Shown here one piece after another: positions 4,136-24,243 of a DNA stretch of 24,243 nucleotides; positions within the stretch are counted from its first letter, which is position 1; each line of letters starts with the position of its first letter. Origin of the DNA: a virus. The position numbers and the translations under genes were made by a program. The stretch lies in the IMG/VR virus record IMGVR_UViG_3300002225_000013, positions 1 to 24,243 of that record. The stretch is one strand, 5' to 3'. The notes beneath the pieces are model-generated. The model was not told where the DNA came from, did not search any database, and saw nothing but the letters and a program-made list of their open reading frames with translations.

Positions 4136-4169
4136 AATAACCCGCATGAGTCACATCATGCGGGTTATT
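4136..4169. terminator. Bidirectional intrinsic terminator
   Basis: Perfect 14-bp inverted repeat AATAACCCGCATGA (4136-4149) and TCATGCGGGTTATT (4156-4169) with a 6-base loop. It lies between the end of the rightward helicase gene (4044) and the end of the leftward operon (4173). T-rich sequence follows the stem on the + strand (TTATTTGTTT). On the minus strand the A/T part of the stem and the sequence beyond serve the same way. It probably stops both converging transcripts. Confidence 0.88.
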
Positions 4170-19158: not shown

Positions 19159-19559
19159 TGAATTCAGTCACACAAGACATTGCTGATCTATTGGTTGCGG
19201 CTGGCCTTGGCACTCTTGGCACAAACCTCTTCCACCCAGCATTTGGGCCTGATGATCTTGATGTTCAAACCATGATTGGAAGCTCTGGTGGCATGGATGC
19301 TATTCCATCCCTCTCTTATGAGCAACCAAACTTTCAGGTGATGTGTCGAGGGGAGCGAGAGGGTGACGCCATGGATGTCTATACAACCATTCGCACCATC
19401 TTTGAATACCTCAACAACAAGGACCGGGATGGTGAGGTGATTAATGGCACAACATATCTAGGCTTCCACCCAAAGGGCAATGTTGCCAGCCTTGGTATGG
19501 ATGAGCACAAGCGCTATGTGTACACAATGAACTTCTATACATTCAGGAACCCAGCATGA
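19155..19559 (+). CDS. Tail terminator-like protein
   Basis: 134 residues. TQDIADLLVAAGLGTLGTNLF at the start, then IPSLSYEQPNFQVMCRGEREGDAMDVYTTIRTIFEYLNN-like, and a beta end with YVYTMNFYTFRNP. The layout '.i...L...g.gt.g...f........p....tg.......y..p..qv..R......a......i...L' is that of minor-capsid/tail terminator proteins which cap the tail tube. The start could be ATG 19155 or 19158. It ends with an ATGA overlap into the first tail tube gene. Confidence 0.8.
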   Translation: MMNSVTQDIADLLVAAGLGTLGTNLFHPAFGPDDLDVQTMIGSSGGMDAIPSLSYEQPNFQVMCRGEREGDAMDVYTTIRTIFEYLNNKDRDGEVINGTTYLGFHPKGNVASLGMDEHKRYVYTMNFYTFRNPA

Positions 19560-20080
19560 CCCAGAACAATAGGCAGGGAAGAGAATTCAAGTTCCAGACA
19601 ACTCTTAATGGGGGCAACAATTGGAATGACATTGGCGGCATTGCATCAAAAGAGTTTGTCCGGGAAAGGGCAATTTCTGATACCACAAGCCAATCTACCC
19701 CGGGCAATGAGACAGAGGCCTGTGATCATGGATACATGTCTGCCTCTGCAACCTTCTCTGGCAAGGTGGATAAGCGCTCTGGTGTTGGCCTAGATGATTA
19801 CAAGGCTTTATCATTGGTGGCAAATTCAAGCCCTCCACAAGATTATTTCCGAATGACTGATGGCATGGATGATGCAGGAGAAACCTTTGAGGGCTATTTT
19901 CTCATCACCAGCTTTGGAAAGACCACTGACCAGAATGGCATTGTGGAATATTCAGTTTCTCTAATCAACACAACCGACTTATACTATGTTGACCAGTGGT
20001 ATGTTGCACTTGAGTTTTTTGCCAACACTACCCTTCCCGATGCTTGGGAGAATATACAATATGGAACAGATTTTAGCTAG
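19556..20080 (+). CDS. Tail tube protein paralog 1 with extra C-terminal module
   Basis: 174 residues. Residues 1-137 are homologous to the next gene: GGIASKEFVRERAISDTTSQ, TSQSTPGNETEAC, then FEGYFLITSFGKTTDQNGIVEY. This is the TP901-1-type major tail protein pattern. It then continues for about 34 residues not found in the paralog (DLYYVDQWYVALEFF, TLPDAWENIQYGTDFS). The same module ends the tail protein encoded at 23368-23880, with 46 of 50 identical bases at 20031-20080 versus 23831-23880. The two tail tube copies may form mixed or end-specific rings; the extension could anchor the tube to the baseplate. The paralogy is seen; the role is inferred. Confidence 0.85.
   Translation: MTQNNRQGREFKFQTTLNGGNNWNDIGGIASKEFVRERAISDTTSQSTPGNETEACDHGYMSASATFSGKVDKRSGVGLDDYKALSLVANSSPPQDYFRMTDGMDDAGETFEGYFLITSFGKTTDQNGIVEYSVSLINTTDLYYVDQWYVALEFFANTTLPDAWENIQYGTDFS
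20031..20080 (+). repeat. Shared C-terminal coding module, copy 1 (copy 2 at 23831-23880)
   Basis: 50 bp with 46 identities to 23831-23880. Both encode LPDAWENIQYGTDFS plus stop. All four differences are synonymous or change TAG to TAA, so the peptide is under constraint or recently copied. Weaker protein similarity extends about 18 residues upstream of the repeat in both genes. Confidence 0.9.
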
Positions 20081-20094
20081 AATGGAGACTAAAA

Positions 20095-20526
20095 ATGACT
20101 GCAAATAACATCCAAGGCCGCACCCTCCTATTGCAGATCAGCGATGACGCTGGCTCAACATGGAAGGATGTTGGTGGCATTTCCACAAAAGAGTTTAACC
20201 GTGACAACCCAATTACTGATGTCACAAGCCAGTCCACCCCGGGCAATGAGACAGAAGCCTGTTACAATGGCTATTCAACTGTCACTCTCAATGGCTCTGG
20301 TAAGGCTGACACTCGTGATGATGTTGACACAATGGGCTATAAAGCTTTCAGTGCGATTGCCAACAGCTCAACCCCATCCGCTCTAATGCGCTTGGCTGAC
20401 TCAGAAGAAACCTATGAAGGAACCTTCTTGATCACCAGCTTTGGTAAGACATCAGAGCAGAATGGCATTGTTGAATTCTCAGCTGCTCTGCAAAATGAGA
20501 GCGCCATCACCTTCACACAGACTTAA
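20095..20526 (+). CDS. Major tail tube protein (paralog 2)
   Basis: 143 residues, GGAG 7 bases before ATG 20095. LLLQISDDAGSTWKDVGGIS opens the protein; TSQSTPGNETEAC and FLITSFGKTSEQNGIVEFSAAL match the upstream copy and TP901-1-type tail tube proteins. It ends QNESAITFTQT, without the extra module. It probably stacks as hexamers around the tape measure to form the tail tube. Size is normal for the family, and its better ribosome site suggests it is the more abundant of the two. Confidence 0.9.
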   Translation: MTANNIQGRTLLLQISDDAGSTWKDVGGISTKEFNRDNPITDVTSQSTPGNETEACYNGYSTVTLNGSGKADTRDDVDTMGYKAFSAIANSSTPSALMRLADSEETYEGTFLITSFGKTSEQNGIVEFSAALQNESAITFTQT

Positions 20527-20531
20527 TTGCC

Positions 20532-21071
20532 ATGGCAAATAAGTATGAAGGAGAAGAGACTGTTGAGGTAGGCAAAGATGTCTACCTCTGCAAAGTTGAC
20601 TTCAGATTTCTTGTAGAGCTAAAGGAGATGGCTGGGATGGACCCGGCTGCAATCTTTACCAATTTGAATTCTGGCGATTGTGACCCAGACCAAATCAAAT
20701 CTGTGGTTGTCTGCGCACTTAGGTCTGAAAATGGAAAGAGCATTGAGGCTGAAGAGGAAAAGAAGGATATTGCAGAAAACATAATTGCAGGCTATGGCCT
20801 TCAAGAGTGTTGGCTCCTATCCCAGCACCTTCTCAGCTATGCTATGATAGGTGAAATTTCAAAGATGAAGCTCCAGTCACTGGACAGGAAAAGGAAGTTT
20901 CTGGAGCTGGTTTCACCTTTCCAATCAGAGAATTTGAAAAATCTGCTATTGCTATGGGGGTGGCACCTGTTGATTTTTGGCCTCTCTGCATGTTTCAGTT
21001 TCAGTCTATTCGTTTGGCTCATCTCCAAAAACACGGACTTCGCCCTGATGGTTCAAGCGCTGGTACAATGA
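20532..21071 (+). CDS. Tail assembly chaperone, unshifted product
   Basis: Zero-frame product of 179 residues. Residues 1-111 (YLCKVDFRFLVELKEMAGMD, IKSVVVCALRSENGKSIEAEE, LQECWLLSQHLLSYAMIGEISK) look like the N-terminal domain of GTA-type/lambda G-like tail chaperones, encoded between tail tube and tape measure. After codon 111 the zero frame becomes unlike a phage protein, with a run NLLLLWGWHLLIFGLSACFSF, because the better coding frame has shifted to -1. The hydrophobic tail is therefore probably a by-product, though it stays open for 68 codons. No clear ribosome site is seen before ATG 20532. Confidence 0.8.
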   Translation: MANKYEGEETVEVGKDVYLCKVDFRFLVELKEMAGMDPAAIFTNLNSGDCDPDQIKSVVVCALRSENGKSIEAEEEKKDIAENIIAGYGLQECWLLSQHLLSYAMIGEISKMKLQSLDRKRKFLELVSPFQSENLKNLLLLWGWHLLIFGLSACFSFSLFVWLISKNTDFALMVQALVQ

Positions 21072-21139
21072 CCCTTGCTGACTTAAACGAGTTGAGGAAG
21101 GGAGTGAGAGAGGCAGAGGCAAAGAAGAATGGCACTTAA
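20532..21139 (+). CDS. Tail assembly chaperone, -1 frameshift fusion (G-T type)
   Basis: Proposed join of 20532-20864 and 20864-21139: 111 residues from frame 0, then 91 from frame -1, 202 in total. After the slip the product reads DEAPVTGQEKEVSGAG, then FPIREFEKSAIAMGVAPVDFW, i.e. the 'AI.mGV.P.dFW' phrase of tail chaperone C-termini, and ends LADLNELRKGVREAEAKKNGT. The -1 frame shows many codons starting with G and ending in T or A like its neighbours. It is closed upstream by TGA at 20852-20854, so the shift must occur after that. The -1 frame ends 11 bp inside the tape measure gene. The short and long forms should coat the tape measure during tail assembly. A natural or sequencing 1-base indel is the alternative. 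Confidence 0.75.
20849..20884 (+). promoter_or_regulatory. Predicted programmed -1 frameshift element
   Basis: AGGTGA (20849-20854) is an SD-like stimulator about 7 bases before the slip site. A_AAG (20861-20864) lets Lys-tRNA move from AAG to AAA. After a 7-nt spacer, TCCAG (20872-20876) pairs with CTGGA (20880-20884) across loop TCA. The -1 frame stop at 20852 and the change in coding character bracket this point. Confidence 0.68.
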
Positions 21140-23375
21140 AGTTGGAACGCTTCAATATGATATAGATGTTGACACAAGAGGCCTTAATAAGGCAGTGTCT
21201 TCAACTAACAGGTTGTTCAGTCGCCTTGGTCGCACCATTGCTGCTGCTCTATCATTTGAAGCTGCCCGGCGCACCGTTCTCCTAGCTGAGAAAATGACCC
21301 TGTTGGATGTTCGCATCAAGAATGTGACAAAGTCCACCAAGGAATTTACAAAGTCTCAACAAGAGCTAATTCGCACAGCCAATAGCACTGGCCAATCATT
21401 CCAAGCAACTGTCCAGTTGTTTGAGCGCCTTAAGATTGCCTCCAAAGATATTGGAGCAAGCAATGACCAAGTTTTGAGACTCACTGAGACAGTCCAAAAG
21501 CTTGGTGTTGTTGGTGGTTCATCTGTTGATGAGATGAAGTTCTCCCTTCGCCAGTTCTCCCAAGCAATGGCAGAGGGTCTTGTGCGTGCGCAAGAATTTA
21601 ACTCCATTGTTGAGAACACCCCATTCATCATGGATGCCATTGCTGACTCTATGGGTGTATCAATTGGCCAGCTTCGCCAAATGTCCAGAGAGGGCAAGCT
21701 TCTCTCCAAGGATGTATTCAACGCACTTCTAGCAAAGCAGGATGAGGTTGTTGAGCGCTTTGAGAAATTCCCTTTGACAACTTCACGTGCCATGCAGGCA
21801 ATTGAGAATAACTTTGGCCAAGCAATCAAGAAGATCAATGATGAAATTGAGGCTTCTCCCCCTCTTGCTAAGTTCTTTCAAGAAATGGCAAACAAAATCC
21901 CTAAGTGGGGCAATGATTTCTTGCGGGCAATCAACACAGTTCAAGCTGGTTGGGTTGTTCTCACTGCTACCTTTGAGGCCAAGTGGGATATTATGCTCCA
22001 AAGGCTATCGCTGGCTTGGGATCAGTTCAAAGGGGCCTTTACATCTGGTGGAGCTGACATTGAATTCTCTTGGGAAATCCTAACCAAGACAATTGGCTTT
22101 CTTTGGTCTAAGGCCTTGGACACAATGGAGCTTACATATGCCAAGTTCATAGCTGGTGTTGCTGAGGTTGCTGATGCCACCGGGTTTGATGACATAGCTG
22201 AGTCACTTAGAGGGACAGCTAAAGAGTTCCTTGGTGCATCCCATGATGCCAAAGCCTTAAAGACTGAAATTGAAGGCCTTGTTGTATCTAATAATAAAAG
22301 GAAAGAGGCAGAGGCCAATGCCAATGAGGAGCGCATTGCAGCTCACAAAAAGGCAGTGGCTGAAATCCTTGAGAAGAAGAAAACAGCGATTGGTGCTGCT
22401 GCTGAAGAGCTTGATGCTGATCTAGCGCGCATTAATGCTGTAGAAGAGGCAGAACGCAAGGCCCGGGAAGCCAAATTGCCGGGGGGTCTTGTTGAGGATA
22501 AGCAAGCCCCTTCTGTTGATGGGATAGAGGTAAATGCTGGCGTGACAGGAAGCATAGAGCAGTTGATGGCTGATATGGGCAATGAGACTCAAGCAATTCT
22601 CAACGCCTTAAGAGAACGCAACAAGAAAATCCTTGATGCCACAGAAGAAGGTGAGACAGCTAGAGAGGATTTGATCAGAGAGAGCCGGAAAAAATTCAAC
22701 AGAGACATGTTGGCATTTGAAAAGCAAAATGCGATTATGGGCCTTCAACAGATTGGAAGCTTTCTGGATCAACTGGTTGGTGTTCTGGCTGCTGGCGGCA
22801 AGAAGCAAAATGCCCTTTACAAAGGATTGTTCTTGGCCATGAAAGCTATCCAAGTGGCAACCATTATTGCTGAGACTGAGGTTGGCGCTGCCAAGGCAAT
22901 TGGCCTCATGGGTCCGTTTGGGCTTCCTCTAGCCAATGTCATTAGAGCATCCGGGTATGCATCTGCTGGCTTAGTGGCTGGCCTAGCCATTGGAGACACT
23001 TTCTCAGGCGGTGGCAGGGTTTCTGGCGGTGATGTGTTTGCTGGCGCAATGCACCCAGTCAATGAGAATGGAAATCCAGAAATACTTGTGCAGGGTGGGA
23101 GGCAATTCCTCTTGCCGGGCAGTAGTGGTGGCAAGATTGTTCCAACAGGGGGCACAGGGATGGGTGGGAGCGCGCCCTCCATCACAATTAACAACAATGG
23201 TCCAGCAATTGATGTGGAAAGCTCTAGGATGTCAGATGGCGAGATTGTCTTGGCAATTAAGGCAGCAGAAGATACTGCAGTGAGCAGAGTGGATACAAGC
23301 CTTGCCTCTCAAAGAGGTTCAACTTATAAATCCTTGAGAGAGGGTGCTGATGTGGGGAGAAATATCCGTGGCTGA
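21129..23375 (+). CDS. Tail tape measure protein
   Basis: 748 residues. N-terminal VGTLQYDIDVDTRGLNKAV and FRSxxGxx-like FSRLGRTIAAALSFEAARR begin the tape-measure N-domain; TGQSFQATVQLFERL, SVDEMKFSLRQFSQAMAEGLV, RAQEFNSIVENTPFIMDAI and LRQMSREGKLLSKDVFNAL are typical of the TMP_3-type family. Residues about 377-450 form a charged coiled coil. About 534-625 are hydrophobic and Gly-rich, likely membrane-active during DNA entry; the end has ITINNNGPAIDV. At about 0.15 nm per residue the tail would be near 110 nm. No lytic transglycosylase or peptidase domain is seen. Overlaps the next gene by 8 bp. Confidence 0.94.
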   Translation: MALKVGTLQYDIDVDTRGLNKAVSSTNRLFSRLGRTIAAALSFEAARRTVLLAEKMTLLDVRIKNVTKSTKEFTKSQQELIRTANSTGQSFQATVQLFERLKIASKDIGASNDQVLRLTETVQKLGVVGGSSVDEMKFSLRQFSQAMAEGLVRAQEFNSIVENTPFIMDAIADSMGVSIGQLRQMSREGKLLSKDVFNALLAKQDEVVERFEKFPLTTSRAMQAIENNFGQAIKKINDEIEASPPLAKFFQEMANKIPKWGNDFLRAINTVQAGWVVLTATFEAKWDIMLQRLSLAWDQFKGAFTSGGADIEFSWEILTKTIGFLWSKALDTMELTYAKFIAGVAEVADATGFDDIAESLRGTAKEFLGASHDAKALKTEIEGLVVSNNKRKEAEANANEERIAAHKKAVAEILEKKKTAIGAAAEELDADLARINAVEEAERKAREAKLPGGLVEDKQAPSVDGIEVNAGVTGSIEQLMADMGNETQAILNALRERNKKILDATEEGETAREDLIRESRKKFNRDMLAFEKQNAIMGLQQIGSFLDQLVGVLAAGGKKQNALYKGLFLAMKAIQVATIIAETEVGAAKAIGLMGPFGLPLANVIRASGYASAGLVAGLAIGDTFSGGGRVSGGDVFAGAMHPVNENGNPEILVQGGRQFLLPGSSGGKIVPTGGTGMGGSAPSITINNNGPAIDVESSRMSDGEIVLAIKAAEDTAVSRVDTSLASQRGSTYKSLREGADVGRNIRG

Positions 23376-23880
23376 ACAATGGCCTAAACTTAACACCGAT
23401 ATTTTGCTTGCTGGGTATAGCCCGGTTGAAAATTCGCACACCCAAAATAACAAGGTTCAATCTGGCGCACTCCGCTTTGAGTTGTTGACGGATGTTGTTC
23501 CAATGAATGCAAAGATCACCCTCAACTTGTCCTCATTTGATTTCCAGTTGTTTGATGGCTGGTTCAAAAAGACAATTGCCTATGGATCAAAATCATTTAT
23601 AGTTCCGCTCAAGGTTGGGATGGGTGTTGTTGATCATGAGTGCTATTTTCTTGGCCCATATGTGCCAAGCCCCATTGGCCAGAGATGGAAAGTTTCAGCC
23701 ACACTGATAGCCATTCAGAAGCAATATAATACGGATGCTGATATTGATCAATTGATGGTGCTGGCTGAGTTGACTGATGACTTGTATAATGATCAATTCT
23801 TTATTGACTTTGATACATTCTTGAATGTCACCCTTCCTGATGCTTGGGAGAATATACAATATGGAACGGATTTTAGTTAA
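23368..23880 (+). CDS. Phage tail protein encoded after the tape measure, distal-tail-like
   Basis: 170 residues from GTG 23368, chosen because GGGGAG (23354-23359) lies 8 bases upstream; starts further left lie inside the tape measure gene. AEQWPKLNTDILLAGYSPVE, GALRFELLTDVVPMNAKITLNL, FDFQLFDGWFKKTI, and HECYFLGPYVPSPIGQRWKVSATL-like fit the family 'WP..L......GYs........R.e...g.....r......' ... 'F..W.......g..wF.v.l......h..rF.g.y....G..W.vsatl'. These small proteins follow the tape measure and may join tube to tip. The last 33 residues carry the module also ending tail tube paralog 1 (TLPDAWENIQYGTDFS). Confidence 0.82.
   Translation: MAEQWPKLNTDILLAGYSPVENSHTQNNKVQSGALRFELLTDVVPMNAKITLNLSSFDFQLFDGWFKKTIAYGSKSFIVPLKVGMGVVDHECYFLGPYVPSPIGQRWKVSATLIAIQKQYNTDADIDQLMVLAELTDDLYNDQFFIDFDTFLNVTLPDAWENIQYGTDFS
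23831..23880 (+). repeat. Shared C-terminal coding module, copy 2
   Basis: 46 of 50 bases are identical to 20031-20080; both copies end a tail gene with the same 15-residue peptide and a stop codon. Confidence 0.9.
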
Positions 23881-24243
23881 TGGCAGTTGATCAAGAAGCT
23901 TGGAATAGGTTTTTGGCCTCAGCACCAGAGGGTGTTAGGGAGTACAGAACTATTGAGCTGAGTCACCCTGAATTCTCTGCTGGCCAACTTCGCTTTGTTA
24001 AGGATTATGTTGATGCTGATCTTGGACTTGAGGCTGATGCCCCAAGAAACCCCGGCGAAGTTGTGACCTTTACAGCAATTGCTATGGATGTCAAAGAGCC
24101 AGATGAAACAGGCGATGCAGAGCAAATCCTTCAAATAAACCTTGGCGCTGTTGGTGGTGAGGTTCAAGATGTTCTAAAGGAGATAACTGCAGCAGGGGTG
24201 CTAACTCCAATCCAAGTAATTTATCGAAAATACTATGGAGGGG
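23880..24243 (+). CDS. Tail protein, DUF1833-like, C-terminus cut by window edge
   Basis: Starts at ATG 23880, sharing one base with the previous stop (TAATG). 121 codons are visible, with no stop before the edge. The reading MAVDQEAWNRFLASAPEG, then IELSHPEFSAGQLRFVKDY, GEVVTFTAIAMDVKEPDE and LQINLGAVGGEVQDVL matches the DUF1833 tail protein layout ('ElsHPaf....rfv.d......l......g....f....f.v..P......p...l.i.nv...i...l'). DUF1833 genes lie downstream of tape measure genes before tail hydrolase and fibre genes. It is likely a tail-tip component; most of the family's core is present. Confidence 0.85.
   Translation, partial: MAVDQEAWNRFLASAPEGVREYRTIELSHPEFSAGQLRFVKDYVDADLGLEADAPRNPGEVVTFTAIAMDVKEPDETGDAEQILQINLGAVGGEVQDVLKEITAAGVLTPIQVIYRKYYGG

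Follow-up and report, generated by a model that had tools for sequence, protein, structure and literature searches.

Distal tail proteins (DTPs) have the tail-tube fold, and some tail tube proteins carry C-terminal decoration domains, for instance Ig-like ones, as in lambda. How siphophages anchor their side fibres is only now becoming understood. The closest described system is that of Shigella phage Sf11, whose gp17 is a distal tail protein forming a hexameric ring (cryo-EM, PDB 9occ; PMC12724387). A single gp17 “adaptor helix” bundles with three N-terminal helices of the tailspike trimer gp13, and the contact residues named for gp17 are Glu129, Glu136, Glu147 and Glu152 (PMC12724387). Another example is RcGTA, in which the spike TspA touches both the tail tube and the DTP (PMC13420450). 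For Jersey and LSH1, a 2026 study could not determine how the fibres are attached (PMC13243795).

The locus described here belongs to a portion of a tailed-phage genome. The window, that is, the whole stretch of DNA that was analysed, comprises 24,243 nucleotides (positions 1 to 24,243 of IMG/VR record IMGVR_UViG_3300002225_000013). The 44.7-kb record IMGVR_UViG_3300027834_000011 is the same phage, and the overlaps are identical. The late region runs in the order tail terminator, tail tube protein paralogue 1 (TTP1), tail tube protein paralogue 2 (TTP2), a small gene, tape measure, P0002 (the DTP), DUF1833, NlpC/P60, TipJ and a fibre candidate. The Sf11 order of tube protein, tape measure, DTP, hub protein 1, hub protein 2 (TipJ) and fibre is that of this phage. 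Elsewhere in the window, a near-perfect palindrome of 34 bases (4136-4169) lies 3' of the stop of the 1945-4044 gene and ahead of genes on the opposite strand; it is probably a bidirectional terminator. The features of the tail region are the following.

19556..20080, plus strand: TTP1, tail tube protein paralogue 1, 174 aa, with a C-terminal docking-like module (phrog_1407, PF06199)
19964..20080, plus strand: TTP1 C-terminal module of some 38 codons and the stop; aligns in register with that of the DTP
20009..20026, plus strand: h[DE]xxhN motif of TTP1 (LEFFAN), from the sequence
20030..20080, plus strand: near-identical core TLPDAWENIQYGTDFS plus stop, copy 1 (TTP1), from DNA comparison
20095..20526, plus strand: TTP2, tail tube protein paralogue 2, 143 aa, without the module (phrog_1407, E 7.6e-17; PF06199, E 4.5e-12)
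20532..21071, plus strand: probable tail assembly chaperone gene, so named by its position between tube and tape measure genes
21129..23375, plus strand: tape measure protein (PF20155 TMP_3, E 4.9e-56)
23344..23880, plus strand: distal tail protein (DTP, P0002) of the phrog_384 / Sf11 gp17 type, from profile, fold and gene order
23764..23880, plus strand: predicted C-terminal adaptor module of the DTP, from AlphaFold2 helices and alignment with the Sf11 gp17 adaptor
23809..23826, plus strand: h[DE]xxhN motif of the DTP (FDTFLN), from the sequence
23830..23880, plus strand: near-identical core TLPDAWENIQYGTDFS plus stop, copy 2 (DTP), from DNA comparison
23880..24243, plus strand: DUF1833 / baseplate hub protein 1, truncated at the end of the window (PF08875, E 1.1e-10; phrog_396)

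Several neighbours of the DTP gene also have counterparts in Sf11. The DUF1833 protein is a homologue of Sf11 gp16, with a weak match to 9occ_F, and TipJ matches Sf11 gp14 (9occ_E) by profile with E 2.8e-62. A Pfam scan of the 20532..21071 product gave no match.

P0002, encoded after the tape measure, is a distal tail protein of the Sf11 gp17 type. Its residues 12-177 match phrog_384 (E 1.7e-23), and a profile built from 30 of its relatives has Sf11 gp17 as its sole PDB match (9occ_C, E 1.8e-13). That alignment reaches from gp17 residue 1 to residue 155 and thus covers the adaptor region. The AlphaFold2 model of the protein has a core pLDDT of 86-95. Searched with Foldseek, the model returns the gp17 chains 9occ_D and 9occ_C at ranks 1-2 (E 1e-5, prob 1.0) and, at rank 4 with E 8e-3, the lambda tail-tip chain 8iyk_E, which we take to be gpM. 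As in Sf11, the gene lies between those for the tape measure and hub protein 1. Judged by the family N-terminus, the likelier start is the GTG at 23368 (MAEQWP...), not 23344, and the gene then probably overlaps the tape measure gene by 8 bases.

The C-terminal extension of this DTP aligns with gp17 residues about 127-155, such that FDTFLNVTLP stands against LDEVVNRELP. The gp17 contact stretch 129-152 falls within the aligned module, with Glu147 and Glu152 inside LDEVVNRELPQ. By this alignment the module is homologous to the Sf11 adaptor region and native to the DTP, and it was therefore copied onto one of the two tail-tube paralogues. Unlike the Sf11 protein, which continues into a large extra C-terminal domain, the DTP here ends with the adaptor. 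The model places C-terminal helices at residues 130-148 and 156-173 with low confidence (pLDDT 55-62, modelled alone). Such values would be expected for an unpartnered peptide, but they are not proof of one.

TTP1 is recognised by its residues 8-139, which match the phrog_1407 major tail protein (E 5.8e-11), and by PF06199 at E 2.4e-4 (21.6 bits, slightly below the cut-off of 23.8). TTP1 and TTP2 have a tube domain in common, with 52% identity, and the C-terminal extension is found in TTP1 only. The AlphaFold model of TTP2 was poor (pLDDT 48) and was left out of the analysis. In Sf11 the adaptor is on the DTP only, whereas here a near-exact copy is also present on a tube protein. Like the decorated tube proteins, of which lambda is an example, TTP1 would have a C-terminal addition outside the tube. 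Unlike the lambda type, this addition is no folded domain but a short, helical-type peptide that by alignment is homologous to the DTP adaptor.

A first-pass annotation of this DNA had noticed that TTP1 and the protein after the tape measure both end in TLPDAWENIQYGTDFS, that the base changes are silent or in the stop, and that TTP2 lacks the module. Translations and DNA comparison agree on all three points. Its count of 46 matching bases in 50 is corrected to 47 (94% over 50 nt), and near-identity stands; with the whole stop codon included, the count is 47 of 51 nt. The copies differ in four places, by CCC/CCT, ACA/ACG, AGC/AGT and TAG/TAA. All are silent, one being the stop, as against 19% expected of random changes. 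Within the shared core, 13 of 16 codons agree, where 7.2 would be expected had the peptide originated independently (p 0.002). Copying thus took place at the level of the DNA itself.

The weaker similarity further upstream, also reported in that annotation, is real. It is ungapped and in register over about 22 residues, 7 of them identical (shuffle p about 1e-4), and local BLASTP aligns TTP1 residues 139-174 with DTP 144-178. Codons are scrambled in this stretch, and since only one of the seven identical residues keeps the same codon, the resemblance is old or convergent. As read from the sequence, then, the shared end is layered: a recent copying or conversion of the final 50 bp overlies a module of ~38 residues that is either old or convergent. 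The silent-only differences and the older layer together suggest that the peptide has been kept the same in both proteins. The two proteins had been called unrelated, which is not wholly right given the tail-tube fold of DTPs.

The reading preferred here takes the C-terminus common to both proteins to be the element (adaptor helix) by which the DTP docks a receptor-binding protein; copied onto TTP1, it would be able to dock the same fibre there. This reading is given an even chance of being correct. On the DTP, presumably a hexamer at the tail tip, the module would pack in a bundle with the N-terminal helices of a side fibre or spike trimer, like gp17 with gp13. TTP1 is presumably part of the virion with its C-terminus pointing outward, and its module, on the outside of the tube ring, would dock the same fibre as the DTP. 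Fibres would then be anchored on some number of module-bearing TTP1 rings, one or more, as well as on the tip ring, and TTP2 rings would be bare. The fibre in question is presumably the product of the gene after TipJ (L004:6470-7558).

A docking peptide was among the earlier suggestions for this sequence. It gains a concrete basis from the module being the C-terminus of a homologue of Sf11 gp17, which binds the tailspike there; binding in this phage would be by analogy. The proposal resembles the case of RcGTA TspA, in which one appendage contacts both tail tube and DTP. Unlike here, TspA uses other surfaces and folds, without a shared peptide. Several facts count against docking: Sf11-type phages manage with adaptors on the DTP alone, the tube copy is known from one phage only, the helices of the module are predicted with low confidence, the N-terminus of the fibre candidate is of another type than that of gp13, and the 16 identical residues are mostly outside the stretch aligned to Sf11.

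The best surviving alternative, although unlikely, is that the last part of the DTP gene was transferred to the end of a duplicated tube gene by gene conversion or a short recombination, with no docking role and a tail that tolerates it. Such an event would leave the sharp left edge that is seen, with 13 of 16 codons identical inside and 1 of 7 outside, and an end of the DNA copy that falls inside the stop codon. A single recent event does not explain the older in-register similarity upstream, however, and none of the four differences alters an amino acid. Moreover, across the whole 44.7-kb genome no near-identical repeat other than the TTP1/DTP pair links genes of different kinds. Recent recombination, which the first-pass annotation had offered as an alternative to docking, is borne out for the last 50 bp by the codon evidence, and it is compatible with the docking idea.

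The occurrence of the tube copy in one phage also fits an event without function. Searched directly in phages and viral contigs, the module was found in this phage only. Among 35 tail loci, several of whose regions may stop short of the tube gene, no other protein ended in a convincing second copy of the adaptor. The same was true of 82 additional loci, many of them closely related, in which the DTP adaptor was compared with 1,197 C-termini. The second-copy score is 130 in this phage, and no other locus compared exceeds 47; the ~117 tail loci give a bound and are not a census. Searches for close relatives through TTP1, the DTP, the TTP pair, the MCP and the fibre N-terminus returned none beyond the 44.7-kb record of the same phage, and one distant MCP relative (L063) is without a TTP pair of this kind. 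The first-pass annotation would have counted confinement of the module to this phage against its docking idea. The outcome is mixed: such confinement applies to the copy on the tube protein, known from this phage only, but not to the copy on the DTP, which belongs to a widespread family.

Slightly less probable is a role for TTP1 as a tube initiator, present only in the ring beside the DTP, with the same partner (fibre or hub) fixing both rings. The module would then set position instead of adding fibres along the tube. Of the two tube paralogues one has the module, as an initiator ring would have it, and the single spike of RcGTA likewise reaches tail tube and DTP. Against it, Shine-Dalgarno-like sequences are similarly placed before TTP1 and TTP2 and do not tell the two apart in amount.

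The wider DTP family lends support to the preferred reading, that of a docking element native to the DTP. In about 50 viral loci, the relatives of this DTP have D..hN..[WL]P as their ending. The form D..hN..WP occurs 45 times in 236,482 residues, always at a DTP C-terminus, against 0 occurrences in one shuffle. More fully, DTPs of the family end in h[DE]xxhN..[WL]P in many phages; the pattern is represented here by FDTFLNVTLP in the DTP and LEFFANTTLP in TTP1. In Sf11 and its kin the DTP end takes the form LDEhhN or LDxhhT.

In about ten loci (L011, L014, L015, L020, L023, L026, L030, L054 among them), the DTP ends with D..hN..[WL]P in tandem, ~20 residues apart, suggesting from the sequence two docking sites per DTP subunit. 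Multiplication of the element has thus happened elsewhere. The phrog_384 proteins of Pseudomonas phage MR14 and related loci, some of which have the motif twice, resemble that of the present phage in family, in C-terminal motif and, in some phages, in the repetition of a docking motif per virion. They differ in that any second copy sits in the same polypeptide and not on a tube protein.

The motif h[DE]xxh[NT] is also found near the N-termini of spike candidates, in 19 of 24, compared with 64 of 563 other N-termini (11%); the spikes are interrelated, and a p-value overstates their independence. Examples are LDEVVN/IDEVVN in Sf11 and LDEIVN/VDEIVN in ZX4. A motif shared by DTP and spike is what a bundle of one DTP helix with three spike helices would lead one to expect.

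Strict co-variation of the last motif residue (N or T) between DTP and spike was considered as proof of pairing and rejected: it is fully concordant in hand-picked cultured phages, but in ~80 further loci DTPs with N are also paired with spikes having T or A. In Cobrasixvirus, Feofaniavirus and related loci (L101, L104, L134-L188), the DTP motif ends in T rather than N (LDIVVT), and at that place T or S, never N, is found in the partner spike; the reverse rule fails in Sf11-like phages. A further family of ends occurs in proteins encoded directly 3' of the DTP or tape measure (L022:8420-8902, L023:8503-8985, L054:4381-4869 and others), which finish in FDLINxxWPRxxY..xxPGxxYL. These proteins are probably of the DUF1833 type. 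Their ends look loosely like the DTP motif, a resemblance that may be due to chance or be part of the protein's fold.

The fibre candidate of this phage differs from the Sf11 tailspike in having another type of N-terminus. The PS.D.RDL..N...hDE.hN pattern of the gp13 type is absent from it, and the only loose motif match, AETNVN, has a ~11% chance of accidental occurrence. A search with this N-terminus in phages gave no match. The candidate and an unrelated early-region protein (L067:7290-7805, minus strand) have a 26-residue peptide in common, 58% identical (TQGGITYAPQIGQLPIGPEAFDSNKW / TEDGLQYAPKVECLPIGPEEFDPSKW), with no detectable DNA similarity.

A partner other than a fibre, for instance hub protein 1 (DUF1833), TipJ or an accessory protein, is improbable, more so than the explanations above. 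It would accommodate the N-terminus of the fibre candidate, and also the position of the 16 identical residues of TLPDAWENIQYGTDFS, most of which are beyond the stretch that aligns with Sf11 gp17. Against it, the homologous Sf11 region binds the tailspike and extends outward. Docking to the tape measure or chaperone, also considered earlier, is not supported, a genome-wide comparison having found no peptide shared with them. An assembly artefact is an unlikely source of the two copies, which differ at four positions and are both carried unchanged by a circularly permuted contig.

The docking principle is already known from Sf11 (2025); its presence on a tube paralogue is new. A more far-reaching version of the preferred docking reading holds that the siphophage tube carries receptor-binding fibres by means of a DTP docking peptide that was transplanted to a dedicated tube paralogue and that repeated gene conversion has held identical. 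This version is tentative and on the doubtful side; the apparent signs of repeated homogenisation of the TTP1/DTP module come from one uncultivated phage.

If the docking reading is true, h[DE]xxhN..[WL]P could be used as a motif to seek docking sites in many phages. Spikes or fibres may sit on the tail tube as well as on the tip in this phage. A portable docking peptide, native to the DTP and functional on a tube protein, would explain evolutionary change in the number and position of fibres. It would also provide a simple evolutionary route for multiplying or relocating the host-binding fibres of a virion.
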